Below are positions 1-6,524 of a stretch of 64,000 bases of DNA, one piece after another. The translations under genes were made by a program, and so were the position numbers. This stretch comes from Myxococcales bacterium (lineage in GTDB: Bacteria > Myxococcota_A > Polyangia > Polyangiales > Polyangiaceae), in assembly GCA_016191785.1 (NCBI GenBank), contig JACPVJ010000023.1, positions 1 through 64,000 on the forward strand, written 5' to 3'. The notes below the pieces were generated by a model that saw only the letters and a program-made list of their open reading frames with translations, was not told the origin of the DNA and made no database searches. Each line of letters opens with the position of its first letter. Positions within the stretch are counted from its first letter, which is position 1.

Positions 1-483
1 CGCCTCCGCCTCACGCTTCGCTTCCGCCTCGCGCCGCGCTTCCGCCTCGCGCCGCGCTTCCGCCTCACGCTTCGCTTCCGCCTCGCGCTGCGCTTCTTGT
101 GCGCGGCGGATCGCCTCTGCGCGCATTCGCTCTCCGGCCTCGCGCCCTGCCTGCTCCGCCTCTGCGCGCCGCAACGCTTCGGCACGCCTGGCCTCTGCGG
201 CACGTAGGGCTTCGTCCTCGCGCAGCTGCGCTGCGGCCTCGCGCTGCTCCTGCGCGCGCTGCTCAGCTTCGACGCGGGAGCTGTCTTGTTCCGCCCAGTG
301 GTCGTCCACGTCTGACGCGCCAGGGTCGACCACCGGCGCCACGCGCGCGGCCGCGGTGGCCGTGGCCCCGGCAAGCTCGGCCGACGGGCTCGGGCTGCTA
401 CGCGCCGGGCGCGGCTCCGCCGCCCGCGTGAGGACGCGGGTCAGCAAGGCTTGAAGCTTCTTCACCTGTTCGTCGTTCGGCAC
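1..483 (-). CDS. N-terminal part of an Ala/Glu/Arg-repeat coiled-coil protein (runs off the window)
   Basis: The reverse strand is open from a GTG at 483 to the window edge (161 codons, no stop). The protein starts VPNDEQVKKLQALLTRV, has a Pro/Ala/Ser-rich stretch (about residues 25-60), and from about residue 70 is almost only Ala, Glu, Arg and Gln. Near the edge it becomes a heptad-like array of KREAEA/RREAEA units, encoded by near-identical 12-24 bp DNA repeats. A long single alpha-helix or coiled coil is expected. There is no Shine-Dalgarno sequence; TAGGCT lies 9 nt before the GTG, so the mRNA may be leaderless. Similar repetitive helices occur in the gene at 19962-20972. The function is unknown and the C-terminal domain lies outside the window. 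Confidence 0.7.
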   Translation of the reverse strand, partial: MPNDEQVKKLQALLTRVLTRAAEPRPARSSPSPSAELAGATATAAARVAPVVDPGASDVDDHWAEQDSSRVEAEQRAQEQREAAAQLREDEALRAAEARRAEALRRAEAEQAGREAGERMRAEAIRRAQEAQREAEAKREAEARREAEARREAEAKREAEA

Positions 484-649
484 CGCGGGCACAGCCTACA
501 GCGGACAGCCCGGGTCGGACGCCTTTTGCGCCTGCGAATCCACCGACGCTGCCCTCGGCCTACGGTCGCGATACCCCCGCCGCCCGCGAAGCGAGCCGCG
601 TACCGCCTGCGCGCCCGGCTGCTATGCTCCTCCGACACGGAGGCCTTCG

Positions 650-1378
650 ATGCGACGCTTGACTTCGGCTCTGCTGGTTCTGGGTTTGTTCGCGGCGTGC
701 GGCGGGGAGAGTGACACTGATGGGTCCGGCGGCTCGGGCACGGGCGGCAGCTCGACCGGCGGCTCGAGCGGCTCCGGCGGTGCCACCGGCGGCTCGAGCG
801 GCTCCGGCGGTGCGAGCGGCTCCGGCGGCGCGACAGGCGGCGCGAGCGGCTCCGGTGGCTCGGGCGGTGCGACCGGCGGTTCCGGCGGTGCGACCGGCGG
901 CTCCGGGGGTGCGGGCGGGTCCGGCGGCTCGACCGGCGGGTCCGGCGGCGGGTCGAGTTGCAGCGCCGAGAGCGACTGCGTCGCGAGCGCCTATACCAAG
1001 CTCGTGAAGACAGAGGCCGACTGCTACTGCGTGATGTGCCCGAGCGTGGCGCTCTCGAAGACCGAGGCCGAAGCGCGCGCCAAGGCCTGGACCCAGGTCT
1101 GCTCGGCCTGGGCGCAGAAGAACCCGTGCCCGGTTCCGTCGTGCATGAAGCCGCCGCCGGTCACCTGTAGCGGCGGGCAGTGCGCGTTCGGCGGGTCCGA
1201 GGCGAGCTGCACCACCTCCGGCGGAACGGTCAGCAAGGCCCTGTGCTGCGCGAGCACCGGCGACTTCCCCAACATGTGCACCACCGGACCGTGCGGCTGC
1301 GCGCCCTCGAGCAGCCACGACGTGAAGATCTGTCAGTGCCCCAGTGGCCAGTGCTTCGACGGTACCAAATGCAAGTGA
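650..1378 (+). CDS. Cys-rich lipoprotein with long Gly/Ser linker
   Basis: The 242-residue protein has a lipoprotein signal ending LFAACGG with Cys17 as the likely lipidated residue. Residues about 20-103 are a linker built from SGGSG, GGATGG and GGAS units in imperfect DNA repeats. The rest is a compact domain with about 20 cysteines, including CYC, CC and CGC pairs, so it is probably disulfide-bonded outside the cytoplasm. GGAG at 639-642 is the ribosome binding site for this ATG. No family is recognised. The architecture (lipobox, flexible spacer, small Cys-rich head) recurs at 47727-48275. Confidence 0.85.
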   Translation: MRRLTSALLVLGLFAACGGESDTDGSGGSGTGGSSTGGSSGSGGATGGSSGSGGASGSGGATGGASGSGGSGGATGGSGGATGGSGGAGGSGGSTGGSGGGSSCSAESDCVASAYTKLVKTEADCYCVMCPSVALSKTEAEARAKAWTQVCSAWAQKNPCPVPSCMKPPPVTCSGGQCAFGGSEASCTTSGGTVSKALCCASTGDFPNMCTTGPCGCAPSSSHDVKICQCPSGQCFDGTKCK

Positions 1379-1388
1379 GGCGCGGCTT

Positions 1389-1727
1389 TCACGCCTTCTG
1401 AAACACGAAGAAGCCACCGAGCGCGATGAACGCGAAACCCACGAGCTGCCGCCAGCCGAGGGGCTCGCGGAGATAGAGCGCGCTGAACGCGGCAAAGACC
1501 ACCAGCGTGATGATCTCCTGGATGGTCTTGAGCTGCGCGGCGCTGTAGGTGCCGTGCCCGATGCGGTTGGCCGGGACGGCGAAGCAGTATTCGATGAACG
1601 CGATCCCCCAGCTGACCGCGATGACCGCGAGCAGCGAGGCCGACTTGAACTTCAGGTGCCCGTACCAGGCGAAGGTCATGAACACGTTCGAGATGCAGAG
1701 CAGGATGATGGGCAAGAGGGCGGGCAC
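1389..1727 (-). CDS. DMT-superfamily small membrane protein (DUF486-like)
   Basis: This 112-residue protein is almost entirely hydrophobic with four predicted membrane segments. It matches the DUF486/COG3169 family in length and in recognisable stretches: FMTFAWYGHLKFK near the start, FIEYCFAVPANRIGH in the middle, and LGWRQLVGFAFIALGGFFVF at the end. The family belongs to the drug/metabolite transporter superfamily, but its substrate is not established. The start is a GTG at 1727 preceded by GAGGAG at about 7 nt. It converges with the lipoprotein at 650-1378; only 10 bp separate the stops. Confidence 0.85.
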   Translation of the reverse strand: MPALLPIILLCISNVFMTFAWYGHLKFKSASLLAVIAVSWGIAFIEYCFAVPANRIGHGTYSAAQLKTIQEIITLVVFAAFSALYLREPLGWRQLVGFAFIALGGFFVFQKA

Positions 1728-1913
1728 GTGGGAGCTCCTCGCGGGGCGCGCCCGCGGCGCCGGAGGCTAGCCCAGCGCTCTGCCGGGTGGCGTCCGCCCG
1801 GCGCGGGAGTCGGCCCCCGCGGGCGGCGCGCCGTCGGGTGATTTTCCCGGGTTCCGTGGGGCTTCCCAGCTCGTGCGCCGGTCGCCTATGCTGCAGGGTG
1901 GTCATTTTTTTCG

Positions 1914-3128
1914 GTGACCGAGCAGAGGATGGGCGAGGTGGTGGAGTTCGAAGAGCGCGCATGGTCCGGAGACGCGCGGTCGTTGGGCGAGGGTCAGGGG
2001 CGCGCGTTCCGCGGTCGCACCCGAGAAATCCTGGACGCCGTCTCGGCGCTGCCCCTGTTCCCCGCCTGGTCTCCTGCGCTCGTGCGACGCGGGCTGACAC
2101 TCGCCGCGGCCCGCGCGGCGGGCAGCTGGTACCTCCGCGCCCACCGGACCCTGCTCGAACGCCACCGCGCCGGCCACTACGCCGAGCTCTTCGAGGGACT
2201 CGCCGCCGCCCTCGGGCTACCGCTGAGCACGGTCTACGGGCTCAACGCGTTCGAGATCGAGAGCGCGCTCCCGACCGTGCGCCTGGGTTGCACGGCGCTC
2301 GCGCTCTCCCCCGATCTGACCGACCACGGTCGGCCGCTGATCGCGTACAACCACGACTTTCCACCGTCGTTCGAGCCGTTTCTTTTCCTCCGTCGGACCC
2401 GACCGCAGAACGGCATCGAGAGTCTGGCCGTCACCTATCCGGTGATGGCCGGGGCAGTTGCAGGCGTGAACGCCGCGGGCCTGGCGGTCACGGTGAACCA
2501 AGCGTTCGCGACCGATGCTTCGCGCCGAGCCCCCGCGCTGCTCACCACGCTCTTGGTTTCCGACCTGCTCGACCAATGCCGTGACGTGGCCGACGCTCGA
2601 GTGGCTTGTCTGGGACGCACGCTGGCGTGCGGCGCCATTCTGACACTGGTGGATGCCTCCGGGGCGCGGGCGGTGGTCGAGCTCTCGGCGCATCAGAGCG
2701 CGGTGCGAACCGCTCCGCGAGAGCGCATCTTGCACGCCTTCAACCAGTACCTGGACCCGGGCATGCAAGCGGTCGAAGTACCGATCGGCGCCGTCACCAC
2801 CGGCATCGGCGCGGGCTACGACATTCATCGCTGCAACCTCGAGCGCCAGGCGCGTTTCGATCGCATCGCCCAGCACGGCGCGCGCCACGATCACGCGCGG
2901 CTGCAGGCGTTGCTCGGCGATCACGACGGGACTCGGGGAACCATGGACACCATCTGCGTGCACGGCGACGCGATGAACGCGACCATCCTGTCGGCGCTGC
3001 TCGATCCCGCCGAGCGGAGCATCCACGTCGCGCGCGGCCGAGCGTGTCAGGCGCGCTACGAGCGCCACACGCTCGGGCCCGTGACTTCGGGGCGAGTCGA
3101 CGCAGACGCTGCACCGGGAGTGGCCTGA
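1914..3128 (+). CDS. C45-type Ntn acyltransferase/hydrolase (acyl-CoA:6-APA acyltransferase-like)
   Basis: The 404-residue protein resembles the C45 family (isopenicillin N acyltransferase and relatives). These precursors cleave themselves to expose an N-terminal Cys that then transfers or hydrolyses acyl groups on amines. The family signature is visible: RLGCTALALSPD with Cys126 as candidate nucleophile, followed by LIAYNHDF and later GVNAAGLAVTVN. About 120 residues precede the Cys, which fits a cleaved alpha chain. The GTG at 1914 is used here; an ATG at 1929 is also possible. The stop is 3 nt before the next start, so the gene is almost certainly co-translated with the oxidase-aminotransferase fusion. 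The substrate is unknown. Confidence 0.8.
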   Translation: MTEQRMGEVVEFEERAWSGDARSLGEGQGRAFRGRTREILDAVSALPLFPAWSPALVRRGLTLAAARAAGSWYLRAHRTLLERHRAGHYAELFEGLAAALGLPLSTVYGLNAFEIESALPTVRLGCTALALSPDLTDHGRPLIAYNHDFPPSFEPFLFLRRTRPQNGIESLAVTYPVMAGAVAGVNAAGLAVTVNQAFATDASRRAPALLTTLLVSDLLDQCRDVADARVACLGRTLACGAILTLVDASGARAVVELSAHQSAVRTAPRERILHAFNQYLDPGMQAVEVPIGAVTTGIGAGYDIHRCNLERQARFDRIAQHGARHDHARLQALLGDHDGTRGTMDTICVHGDAMNATILSALLDPAERSIHVARGRACQARYERHTLGPVTSGRVDADAAPGVA

Positions 3129-3131
3129 GTC

Positions 3132-6100
3132 ATGGCCGGCGGCTTCGTGTCGGGCAAGGTCTCGGGGCTGACCGGAACCGAGCTGTCGTTCTTCGAGAGC
3201 GTCACCGACGCGCTGGTGCCGACCACCAATCGGCTACCGGTGGACGCGCGTGACTCGGGTGCAGCCCGCCGCCTGGACGAGCTGATGCGCGAGCTCGAGC
3301 CCGGCAAGCGCCTGCAGCTTCGCGGGCTGCTCGCGCTCTTCTACGCGGATCTCACCGCCCGCCGCGTGTTGCCGAACGGGGCGCGCAACGGCGAGGGGGT
3401 GCGCGAGCGGCTGGCGACCTGGGCCGACAGCCCCGACTACCGGCAGCGCTCGATGTTCGAGGCGCTGCGCTCGCTGGTCCTCTTGACCCACGTGGGCAGT
3501 CCGCGGGTTCGCGAAGCGCTGGGCATCGAAAGGGGCGACGTCGTCCTGTCGCGCGCCGGAGTCGAGCATCCGCCGGACTCTCGGCCGGCGACGAGCGACC
3601 GACTCGGCGACGGGCCCCCGGACGCTGCCGAGTCGAGCTTCATTCGAGAAGAGCTGCTCTCGGCCAATCACCTCGCGAAGAAGCACGTTCACCCTCGCCT
3701 GGCGAAGATGCTGGAGCTCGCGGGCATGAACACGGTCTTCGAGCGCGCGAGCGGCGCATACCTCTGGGACCTGGGAGGGCGACGCTATCTCGACTTCGTC
3801 ACCGGCGGCGGCGTGCACTTCATCGGTCGCAATCACCCGCGGGTGCTCGATTCGATGCGCCAAGCGCTGCACCCGGATTTGCCGAACCTGTGCCTCGTGA
3901 ACGCTTCGGCGCTCGGCGGCAAGGTGGCCGAGCGGCTGCTGCGCATCGCCGGGCCCGGGTTCGGCAAGGTGTTCTTCGCAAACTCGGGCTCCGAGGCCGT
4001 CGACCTGGCCCTGCGCTTCGCCCGCTACGTCACGGGCCGGCGACGCTTCTTGCACCTGTCGGGCGCGTTTCACGGTCGCACCTGGGGCGCGATCTCGGTC
4101 AACGGCTGGGCCGAGATGAAGGCAGGAATGGACCCGATGTTGCCGGAGTGCACGCCGCTCCGGCGCGACGACCTGTCGCAGCTGGCACGCGAGCTCGCCA
4201 AGGGCGACGTCGCGGCCTTCGTGGTCGAGCCGGTGCAAGGCATGACCGTGGAGGCGCTGGATGCGGGCTACCTGCGGCAGGCCGCGGAGCTGTGTCGGAA
4301 GCACGGCACCCTGCTGGTAGCCGACGAGATCCAGACCGGGCTCGGCCGGTGCGGGTCGTGGTTCGTTTCGTCAGCGCTCGGGCTTCGACCCGACTTGATG
4401 ACGATCTCCAAGACGCTGTCGGGCGGCTTGGTGCCGGTCAGCGCCCTCGCCGTCTCCGAAGCGGTCTACGCCAAGGTGTACGAACGTTTCCAGTCCGGGC
4501 CGTTTTACTTCTCGACGTTCGGCGAGAACAACCTGGCAATGGCTGCGTCGCTCGCAGTCCTCGACGTGCTCGAAGAGCTGGACGCGCCGTCACTGGCGCA
4601 GCAGCTGAGCGGCAAGCTGCGCTCGGGGCTGGCCGAGCTGGCCGCGCGCCACGACTGCATCGAGCGCGTCACCGGCGCGGGCTTGATGGTCGGAGTGTAC
4701 TTCCGCGCCTCGAAGCAGCTGGCGCTGGGCTTGCAGCAGCGCCTGCTCGGTGCGTTCGACCCGGCGGCGTTCTCCGCGGCGATCAACGTCGCGCTGTATG
4801 CCGAGCACCGGGTGCTGGTGCAGGTCCCAGGGCCAGGGCTCTGCGCCATCAAGCTCTTGCCTCCGGTCACGGCCTCGGACAGCGACCTGAACGAGTTTCT
4901 GAACGCGCTCGACGCCACCCTCACGAGCTACGAGACCAGTCGCGGGCCTGCGGTGTCGATGGCGGTCAGCACTGCCAAGAACCTGGTGCGCAGCGTGCCA
5001 CCCGCCGGGCGCCCGCTGCCGCGCCGCACCGCGCGAGACGGTCGACTGTTCGAGCTCGGCGACTACGACGGGCCGATCTCGGTGGAAGCCGACGTGGCAG
5101 TGGTGGGCTCGGGGCCGGGTGGCGCGCTATTGGCCGAGCGACTCGCAGCCCGAGGCAAGCGGGTGGCGCTGCTCGAGGCGGGGCCAGCGGTCCGTCTGCA
5201 CGAGCTCGAAGAAGAGGCGGGGCCCACCCTGGCCAAGCATTTCTTCGAGAACGGCCTGCGTGTCGCCCGCGGTAACCTCTACATGCCGACGCTTCAGGCC
5301 CGGGTGCTCGGCGGCGGCTCGGTGTTCAATTGCGCGATCTGCACGCGCATGACCCACAAGACCCTGAGCGAGTGGCGCGTCGAGCACGGGCTCGAGTGGC
5401 TCACGACCGATGAGGCCGAGCGCCACTATCACGCTGCGGAAGAGCTGATGGGGCTCCGCCCGACCGACGCGGCCATCATGGGCGAGCGCAACCAGCTGTT
5501 TCGCAAGGGGTGCGAAGCGCTGGGGTGGAAGGCCGAACCCGTCGTGCGCAACACCTCGGGCTGCCGCGGCTCGGCGCAGTGCTTCACGGGCTGCCCCAAC
5601 GGCGCCAAGGCGTCGATGGACCGCCGCAGCATCCCGGAGCTCCTCGATGCGGGCGGCACGGTCTACACGTCGGTCCACGTCGGGCGCTTGCGCTGGCGCG
5701 GACGCAAGGTCGTCGGGGTCGCGGGCTCGGTCGCGGGTCGCCCCTCGTGCAGCGTGGAGGTGCACGCACCGATCACGGTGCTGGCCGCCGGCGCCCTCGG
5801 GTCGCCGGCGATCGCTCGCGCCAGCGGCGTGGAGCACGCCGGCGTCGGCGCCGGGCTCCGCTTTCACCCGGGCGCTTCGGTGCTGGCGCTGTTCGATCAC
5901 CAGGTCGACCCCTGGGTGGGCGCGTCGCAGGGCTACCACTGCATGGACTTCTGCGACGACGGGATCAAGCTCGAGACGCTCTGGGCCACGCCCGAGCTGA
6001 TGAGCTTCCGAATCCCGAGCTCCGGTCCCGAGCTCTCGGCGTTGCTCGGCGAGTACCCGCGCTCTGCGGTCTGGGACGTGTTCGTCTCGGGAGAGGACTC

Positions 6101-6524
6101 GGTGGGCCACATCGATCGCGTCGGCCGAGCCCGCTACGACGTCGCGGCGGGCGACGTGCGGCGCATGCGCGAGGGCATGGCGAAGCTGGCCGAGATCGCG
6201 CGCGCCGCCGGGGCTCGCGAGGTCGTCTCGGGGCTGCGCGGCGTCCCCACCCGCTTGCCTGCCAGCTCTGCTGCCGACGCCATTCGCCAGGTGCCGCTCG
6301 AGGTCACGCGCTTCCCGATGGCGTCGAACCACGTCTTTGGCACGATGGCGATGGGAGCCGACCCCGAGCGCTACCCGGTCGACCCCGACTTCGCGGTCCG
6401 GGGCGCGGAGGGCCTCTTCGCTTGCGACACCGGCGTCATGCCCTCGAGCCCGCGCGTGAACCCGATGCTCACCATGTGGGCGCTCTCCCATCGGCTGGCC
6501 GAGGTGCTCTCGGCCCGCTCGTGA
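3132..6524 (+). CDS. Class III aminotransferase nested within a FAO-like GMC oxidoreductase
   Basis: This 1130-residue protein has three parts. Residues about 1-150 match the helical N-terminal region of bacterial long-chain alcohol oxidases (SVTDALVPTTNRLP, TWADSPDYRQRSMFEALRSL). Residues about 171-600 are a complete class III PLP aminotransferase: DEIQTGLGRCG, then the Schiff-base Lys427 in TISKTLSGGLVPVS. Residues about 640-1130 are a GMC flavoprotein with FAD motif GSGPGG (659-664), the FAO-type cluster SAQCFTGCPNGAK, and catalytic His1067/Asn1110. All key residues are intact. Inference: an alcohol is oxidised to a carbonyl and transaminated to an amine within one polypeptide. GGGAG at 3115-3119 precedes the ATG. 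The gene is coupled to the C45 enzyme upstream. Confidence 0.88.
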   Translation: MAGGFVSGKVSGLTGTELSFFESVTDALVPTTNRLPVDARDSGAARRLDELMRELEPGKRLQLRGLLALFYADLTARRVLPNGARNGEGVRERLATWADSPDYRQRSMFEALRSLVLLTHVGSPRVREALGIERGDVVLSRAGVEHPPDSRPATSDRLGDGPPDAAESSFIREELLSANHLAKKHVHPRLAKMLELAGMNTVFERASGAYLWDLGGRRYLDFVTGGGVHFIGRNHPRVLDSMRQALHPDLPNLCLVNASALGGKVAERLLRIAGPGFGKVFFANSGSEAVDLALRFARYVTGRRRFLHLSGAFHGRTWGAISVNGWAEMKAGMDPMLPECTPLRRDDLSQLARELAKGDVAAFVVEPVQGMTVEALDAGYLRQAAELCRKHGTLLVADEIQTGLGRCGSWFVSSALGLRPDLMTISKTLSGGLVPVSALAVSEAVYAKVYERFQSGPFYFSTFGENNLAMAASLAVLDVLEELDAPSLAQQLSGKLRSGLAELAARHDCIERVTGAGLMVGVYFRASKQLALGLQQRLLGAFDPAAFSAAINVALYAEHRVLVQVPGPGLCAIKLLPPVTASDSDLNEFLNALDATLTSYETSRGPAVSMAVSTAKNLVRSVPPAGRPLPRRTARDGRLFELGDYDGPISVEADVAVVGSGPGGALLAERLAARGKRVALLEAGPAVRLHELEEEAGPTLAKHFFENGLRVARGNLYMPTLQARVLGGGSVFNCAICTRMTHKTLSEWRVEHGLEWLTTDEAERHYHAAEELMGLRPTDAAIMGERNQLFRKGCEALGWKAEPVVRNTSGCRGSAQCFTGCPNGAKASMDRRSIPELLDAGGTVYTSVHVGRLRWRGRKVVGVAGSVAGRPSCSVEVHAPITVLAAGALGSPAIARASGVEHAGVGAGLRFHPGASVLALFDHQVDPWVGASQGYHCMDFCDDGIKLETLWATPELMSFRIPSSGPELSALLGEYPRSAVWDVFVSGEDSVGHIDRVGRARYDVAAGDVRRMREGMAKLAEIARAAGAREVVSGLRGVPTRLPASSAADAIRQVPLEVTRFPMASNHVFGTMAMGADPERYPVDPDFAVRGAEGLFACDTGVMPSSPRVNPMLTMWALSHRLAEVLSARS

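Follow-up and report, generated by a model that had tools for sequence, protein, structure and literature searches.

A three-part reading frame of a Myxococcales bacterium as a candidate single-chain alcohol aminase

A 64,000-nucleotide stretch from a Myxococcales bacterium (GenBank assembly GCA_016191785.1, contig JACPVJ010000023.1, positions 1 to 64,000; hereafter the window, meaning the whole stretch analysed) carries one open reading frame (ORF) that joins a helical small subunit of a GMC enzyme, a class III aminotransferase (AT) and a GMC flavoprotein. On balance we favour the view, judged from sequence, that it encodes a natural single-chain alcohol aminase, which arose by operon collapse. 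The enzyme families are known ones; their combination and order we found described nowhere.

Results

Three enzyme parts lie in one intact frame

The 1130-residue chain reads, in order, small subunit (residues 1 to ~141), AT (~165–621) and GMC (~635–1130). Its features are:

3132..6524, + strand: fused ORF, 1130 aa, small-subunit domain, class III AT and GMC flavoprotein (ORF call, Pfam, composition)
3168..3554, + strand: helical small-subunit domain of a GMC enzyme, residues 13–141 (relatives are Gluconate_2-dh3, PF13618; domain model pLDDT 85)
3531..3623, + strand: linker, residues 134–164 (low confidence in the full-length model)
3636..4994, + strand: class III AT module, residues ~169–621 (Pfam Aminotran_3 at 201–596)
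4410..4412, + strand: K427 in ISKTLSGG, the expected Schiff-base lysine for pyridoxal phosphate (PLP) (motif, alignment)
4980..5036, + strand: linker between AT and GMC, residues 617–635 (low confidence in the full-length model)
5034..6521, + strand: GMC dehydrogenase/oxidase module using flavin adenine dinucleotide (FAD), residues ~635–1130 (Pfam, alignment)
5106..5123, + strand: GSGPGG (659–664), FAD-binding loop (motif)
5562..5594, + strand: C811-x5-C817-x3-C821, spaced like Cys212/218/222, which bind 3Fe-4S in Burkholderia FAD glucose dehydrogenase
6330..6332, + strand: H1067, GMC catalytic histidine (motif, alignment)
6459..6461, + strand: N1110, second GMC catalytic position (motif, alignment)

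The frame is unbroken and intact from 3132 to 6524, there is no N anywhere in the window, and G+C by codon position is protein-like in each 50-codon block of the ORF, both domain borders included. An earlier reading of this DNA (the sequence-only reading) had placed the ORF, K427, GSGPGG at 659–664, H1067 and N1110 where we also find them. It had named a frameshift or an assembly join at the borders among the things that would refute it, and neither is indicated: besides the coding-like composition and the lack of N, the first border is supported by a second assembly, since the closest relative found (L009, the same locus as L052, at G022:C68) keeps residues 136–210 in one frame at 69% identity. 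The stretch spanning the second border is absent from L009; two more distant AT–GMC fusions, L050 and L098, lend support to that border. Among the loci found, all three parts are joined in the window only.

L009 is itself incomplete. Across its positions 1–3050 the equivalents of window 2348–3585 and 3758–5137 are missing, without runs of N, and broken pieces of both the fusion gene and the gene upstream of it, of the C45 family, are retained. The GMC stretch that is left, in which the beginning of the FAD domain is missing, is 87% identical to the window with a dN/dS of 0.145. Either decay or misassembly may account for these gaps.

The N-terminal domain is the small subunit of the GMC enzyme

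The sequence-only reading took residues 1–150 for a region of the oxidase itself. The region does belong with the GMC enzyme, but as a small subunit that in most relatives without an AT has a gene of its own and is no part of the oxidase chain. In phmmer comparisons among the fetched loci, residues 1 to ~141 resembled proteins encoded next to GMC genes, either small subunits or N-terminal regions. A profile search showed that in all 26 AT-free loci of the same GMC family that were fetched from a larger set of known matches (L024–L049) the small subunit has its own frame, and that the GMC gene follows directly downstream. One relative, an Oligoflexia record of the Bdellovibrionota (L010), has the small subunit fused directly to GMC. 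Sixteen members were aligned, and Pfam Gluconate_2-dh3, the gluconate dehydrogenase small subunit, matched 11 of them; the window's domain is among the 16 and not among the 11, and has no Pfam match at all, PF13618 included. Modelled alone, it folds into seven helices with a mean pLDDT of 85. Foldseek found no match for this model among solved structures at E <= 0.001, the small-subunit profile found none among Protein Data Bank (PDB) sequences up to E 5, and a literature search on the small subunit found no paper.

That the first residues might instead belong to the AT, another possibility raised earlier, is rejected in view of the relatives described below: small subunit and GMC occur together in 15 loci and are missing together in three (L090, L096 and L100), which accounts for all 18 assessable loci. 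The window's own genome has a second small-subunit (PF13618) gene beside another GMC gene (G000:C81:14710-16571).

Both catalytic modules keep their key residues

A complete AT with its lysine intact does lie inside the chain, as had been read from the sequence. Aminotran_3 (PF00202) matches residues 201–596 at 251 bits (cut-off 30.5), and K427 is conserved in 21 of 22 AT rows, with serine in L100. Of the named AT families PigE comes nearest, with 319 bits in NCBIfam over its AT part alone, short of the curated cut-off of 850; the best structural match in Foldseek is likewise PigE (4ppm), and the 50 top PDB matches listed are AT-type enzymes that use PLP.

Several other relatives of this module were seen. 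At L100 (8132–9511), next to a sulfotransferase, lies an AT relative whose PLP lysine is replaced by serine, perhaps a non-catalytic form. Two Streptomyces ATs (L110, L111) are 41–42% identical to the window's AT; L111 sits in an annotated hopanoid cluster, and the unannotated L110 has, by eye, similar-looking ORFs. A Rhizobium plasmid AT (L114, 39% identity) lies beside the phosphonate genes aepX and aepY. Among plasmids, 545 records match the chain in part and none covers 80% of it; the ten matches listed are stretches of AT alone. Viral contigs held no relative.

The GMC module matches GMC_oxred_N (PF00732) at 715–913 (132 bits, cut-off 23) and GMC_oxred_C (PF05199) at 999–1118 (67 bits, cut-off 24.6). 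The H1067/N1110 pair is invariant in all 12 aligned GMC rows, the window included, and the structures matched by the module include 6'''-hydroxyparomomycin C oxidase (7dve) and 5-hydroxymethylfurfural (HMF) oxidase.

The module also has three cysteines, C-x5-C-x3-C, invariant in the same 12 rows and in all 26 AT-free relatives. In Burkholderia FAD glucose dehydrogenase a 3Fe-4S cluster sits on Cys212, Cys218 and Cys222 and adjoins the small subunit, according to the available excerpt of that work (PMC6719666). The likeness is one of spacing, not of alignment or fold position, and the cluster in the window protein is a predicted one. This spacing, that of an electron-transfer dehydrogenase, weakens the expectation of an O2-dependent oxidase and makes O2 dependence, as proposed from the sequence, doubtful; a dehydrogenase with an electron carrier is at least as likely. 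No twin arginine occurs within the first 45 residues, which fits a cytoplasmic, PLP-using chain. In the window's own genome the motif recurs in all seven GMC frames examined (L012–L017, L019) of nine others found, and it may be widespread among GMC enzymes of this branch.

Relatives encode the parts in a conserved operon

We searched genomes of the same family (108), class (317) and phylum (377, drawn evenly). The AT clade was met in 27 of the 377 phylum genomes at E <= 1e-95 and in six of the 317 class genomes at E <= 1e-110, the window's own genome included. These searches scored few candidates per genome, which leaves absences soft. Eight of the 27 genomes, with AT matches of 38–43% identity, did not enter the operon count; in one of them (L102) neither sulfotransferase, GMC nor small subunit was seen. 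This gave 22 AT loci of the same clade besides the window, at 49–60% identity.

The usual order in other Myxococcota is small subunit, Sulfotransfer_3, AT, GMC (Pfam names from scanned members). A same-strand sulfotransferase lies no more than 1.7 kb upstream of the AT in 19 of the 21 loci that have upstream sequence; in L092 it is ~6 kb off, and L098 has none. The small subunit is upstream of the AT in 16 of the 21, in L092 ~7 kb away. GMC is downstream in 15 of the 19 loci with enough sequence and absent from L090, L096, L099 and L100. L088, L089 and L101 end too early to judge GMC, and L099 to judge the upstream side.

Two of the 15 GMC genes (L091 and L092) are degenerate and form part of a second fused frame right behind the AT gene (6243–8468 in L091, 9279–11918 in L092), which couples an AT-like part to the degenerate GMC-like part. 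Its PLP lysine is replaced in L092, and the FAD loop motif was not found in L091. Three loci (L084, L085, L087) share a gene family near the operon GMC whose scanned member, in L084, is a LysE-type exporter, possibly an exporter of the product. A further gene family (c2) is present in 11 operon loci (L086–L093, L096, L097, L100); the one member scanned gave a weak DUF2505 match below the cut-off.

Fusion appears to have occurred more than once

Two loci besides the window encode AT and GMC in a single frame: L050 (G027), where small subunit and sulfotransferase are separate, and L098 (G135), where the small subunit is separate and adjacent. The AT tree joins the window to L083 (96/91), whose genes are separate, and puts L050 in another supported group (100/99); L098 has no firm place in it. 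In the GMC tree 14 operon rows and the AT-free L010 form one supported group (98/99), apart from 16 AT-free rows of the same family (100/99); within it L050 goes with L087 (100/99) and L098 stands beside L093 and L097 (90/84). From these placements we infer that the AT–GMC fusions arose separately, two separate events being likely and three possible.

The reading that suits the fused protein best is a collapsed operon, whose order, small subunit, sulfotransferase, AT, GMC, is mirrored in the chain. The AT does stand between the two parts of the GMC enzyme, as the sequence-only reading held; its account of an AT set into a finished oxidase is the part that does not hold as the sole explanation. 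In each of the 26 AT-free loci fetched the small subunit is encoded separately, and we reject an insertion-only account because the four-gene operon order also explains the fused order. At the gene level, AT and sulfotransferase do sit between the two GMC-enzyme subunit genes. In line with the earlier statement that no described enzyme has this nested order, text searches of open-licence papers returned no description of such a fusion or operon among the matches listed.

The gene upstream and the missing sulfotransferase

Annotation of the window's neighbouring genes covered one gene:

1914..3128, + strand: C45-family autoproteolytic acyltransferase/hydrolase gene (127 bits, cut-off 85)

Its stop codon ends 3 bases ahead of the ATG of the fusion, and with so short a gap the two genes are probably co-transcribed. 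The C45 gene is also upstream in L009, cut to its first 139 residues, and had no match in the 23 loci scanned. The sulfotransferase was found in none of three genomes of the window's genus, in searches that were positive in all five operon-bearing genomes run alongside; a copy elsewhere in the window's genome is unlikely on this count, absences in such searches being soft.

The structure model resolves the cores

The full-length chain was modelled from a 31-row alignment from which the small-subunit rows were left out because MAFFT misplaced them. The AT and GMC cores are confident, whereas the N-terminal domain is weak, since its alignment contained no small subunits. Structure prediction, which the sequence-only reading had advised, thus gave confident cores and no confident arrangement of domains (pTM 0.52).

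Discussion

A proposed route from alcohol to amine

We propose that the GMC module, with FAD and its own small-subunit domain, would oxidise an alcohol to an aldehyde or ketone; the alcohol may be part of a hydrophobic molecule. Electrons would probably leave through the predicted 3Fe-4S cluster to a carrier and not solely to O2. The AT module would then use an amino donor to convert the carbonyl to a primary amine. Here the sulfotransferase is lost, and the C45 acyltransferase/hydrolase, whose gene precedes the fusion, may act on the new amine. We read the chemistry as alcohol to carbonyl to amine because the residues are intact, the neighbourhood is conserved, AT and GMC are fused in three loci, and there are two precedents, PigE and GenQ/GenB1. 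An alcohol-to-amine conversion on one chain, as first suggested from the sequence, is therefore still the best reading, with its O2-oxidase step put in doubt.

A fuller proposal can be offered only tentatively: that the single chain passes the carbonyl straight from an Fe-S-wired GMC dehydrogenase to the AT, and that such chains evolved independently on several occasions out of a conserved Myxococcota operon for sulfated amino compounds, which may be lipids. A hydrophobic substrate is a guess from the sub-cut-off match to DUF2505, which we take to be a lipid-binding family, and from the Streptomyces AT relatives. The neighbours of those Streptomyces genes had suggested a hopanoid substrate; this idea is weakened, as a search of 20 genomes for squalene-hopene cyclase gave no match in 15, among them that of the window; G021 and G022, which were part of the 20, have no intact AT of the clade. 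The Rhizobium AT relative beside phosphonate genes likewise speaks against a hydrophobic substrate.

Other readings

Several observations weigh against the alcohol aminase. In L090, L096 and L100, where sequence is ample, the sulfotransferase and AT occur without GMC, which indicates that the AT can serve without GMC. The full-length model leaves the arrangement of the domains unfixed and offers nothing reliable on channelling. The proposed kinship in fold with the gamma subunit of glucose dehydrogenase lacks a structural or PDB-sequence match, and kinship of the AT does not fix its substrate, because one relative at 39% identity lies in a phosphonate cluster. The sister copy L009/G022, minus two stretches, may mean that the gene is dispensable there or that the locus is misassembled. 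The GMC tree does not repeat the pairing of the window with L083, the window's place in it being unsettled, and gene splitting could stand in place of repeated fusion.

These points bear on three rival explanations. The two modules may have been fused for co-expression or co-location only, acting at different steps or on different molecules of one pathway. The three loci that have sulfotransferase and AT with neither GMC nor small subunit favour such looseness, as does a full-length model that gives no sign of a channel. Against this, AT and GMC are the very pair fused in all three fusion loci (window, L050, L098) and their chemistry suits two successive steps, and we consider co-location alone rather unlikely. 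A catabolic direction, in which the AT deaminates an amine to an aldehyde and GMC oxidises the aldehyde hydrate to an acid, has chemistry on its side: transaminases are reversible, some GMC oxidases oxidise aldehyde hydrates, and the structures matched by the GMC module include HMF oxidases. The operon partner, however, is a sulfotransferase in 19 of 21 relatives, and the nearest named ATs include biosynthetic enzymes (PigE and the Streptomyces gene annotated in a hopanoid cluster), which makes amine breakdown distinctly unlikely. Finally, the ORF could be an artefact of assembly or sequencing that joins three genes, or a decaying gene, as the two stretches and the FAD domain start missing from L009 might suggest. 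A continuous frame of 1130 codons, coding-like throughout and free of N, with its first border present in L009, AT–GMC fusions in two other assemblies and the checked catalytic residues kept, renders this highly improbable.

The single-chain alcohol aminase would matter in several ways if the reading is true. Direct conversion of alcohol to amine is prized in synthesis, and a natural dual-activity chain together with its operon family would be a source of ready-made catalysts. The operons would also hint at a group of myxobacterial metabolites not yet described. Having both fused and split forms would allow a test of what fusion adds, for example channelling of the carbonyl.

Comparison with known systems

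The Streptomyces hopanoid-cluster ATs, at 41–42% identity to the AT module, are stand-alone proteins, unlike the window's fused AT; we take them to be HpnO-like. For GMC–AT pairs a close parallel in chemistry is that of the aminoglycoside enzymes, where we take the flavin enzymes of the GenQ and Neo11 kind to be GMC proteins and their ATs to be class III. In GenQ/GenB1 and Neo11/Neo18 a flavin-linked dehydrogenase and a PLP aminotransferase replace OH by NH2 in two steps, as the available part of the source describes (PMC4039129). The two-step chemistry is the one we propose here, and 7dve is among the window's GMC matches. The aminoglycoside pairs differ in being separate proteins with aminoglycoside substrates, and that part of the source mentions no small-subunit domain (PMC4039129).

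Burkholderia cepacia FAD glucose dehydrogenase (BcGDH) resembles the window protein in its GMC alpha subunit, its small gamma subunit and C-x5-C-x3-C (PMC6719666); it differs in having a sugar substrate, a small subunit exported by the twin-arginine translocation (Tat) pathway and a multihaem c subunit. The window protein shows no twin arginine within residues 1–45 and carries an AT. An assignment to the BcGDH type would have the cysteine spacing in its favour and lack the Tat signal.

An artificial cascade has coupled a long-chain alcohol oxidase to a transaminase in a five-enzyme mixture (PMC4641459, in part). The two-step chemistry is alike, but the cascade uses separate enzymes and an O2-dependent oxidase, and is not natural.

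For PigE of the prodigiosin pathway there is evidence that one chain makes an aldehyde and aminates it; purified PigE did not show the reduction in the assays reported in the available part of the source (PMC8341465). The likeness to the window protein lies in a proposed carbonyl-making domain and a class III AT on one chain, the AT half being the nearest named family and its structure, 4ppm, the best match. The acyl-thioester reductase domain of the PigE N-terminus, by contrast, has no counterpart among the Pfam domains of the window protein. PigE makes its own aldehyde by reducing a thioester, whereas the window protein has a GMC alcohol oxidiser after the AT and a small subunit before it.

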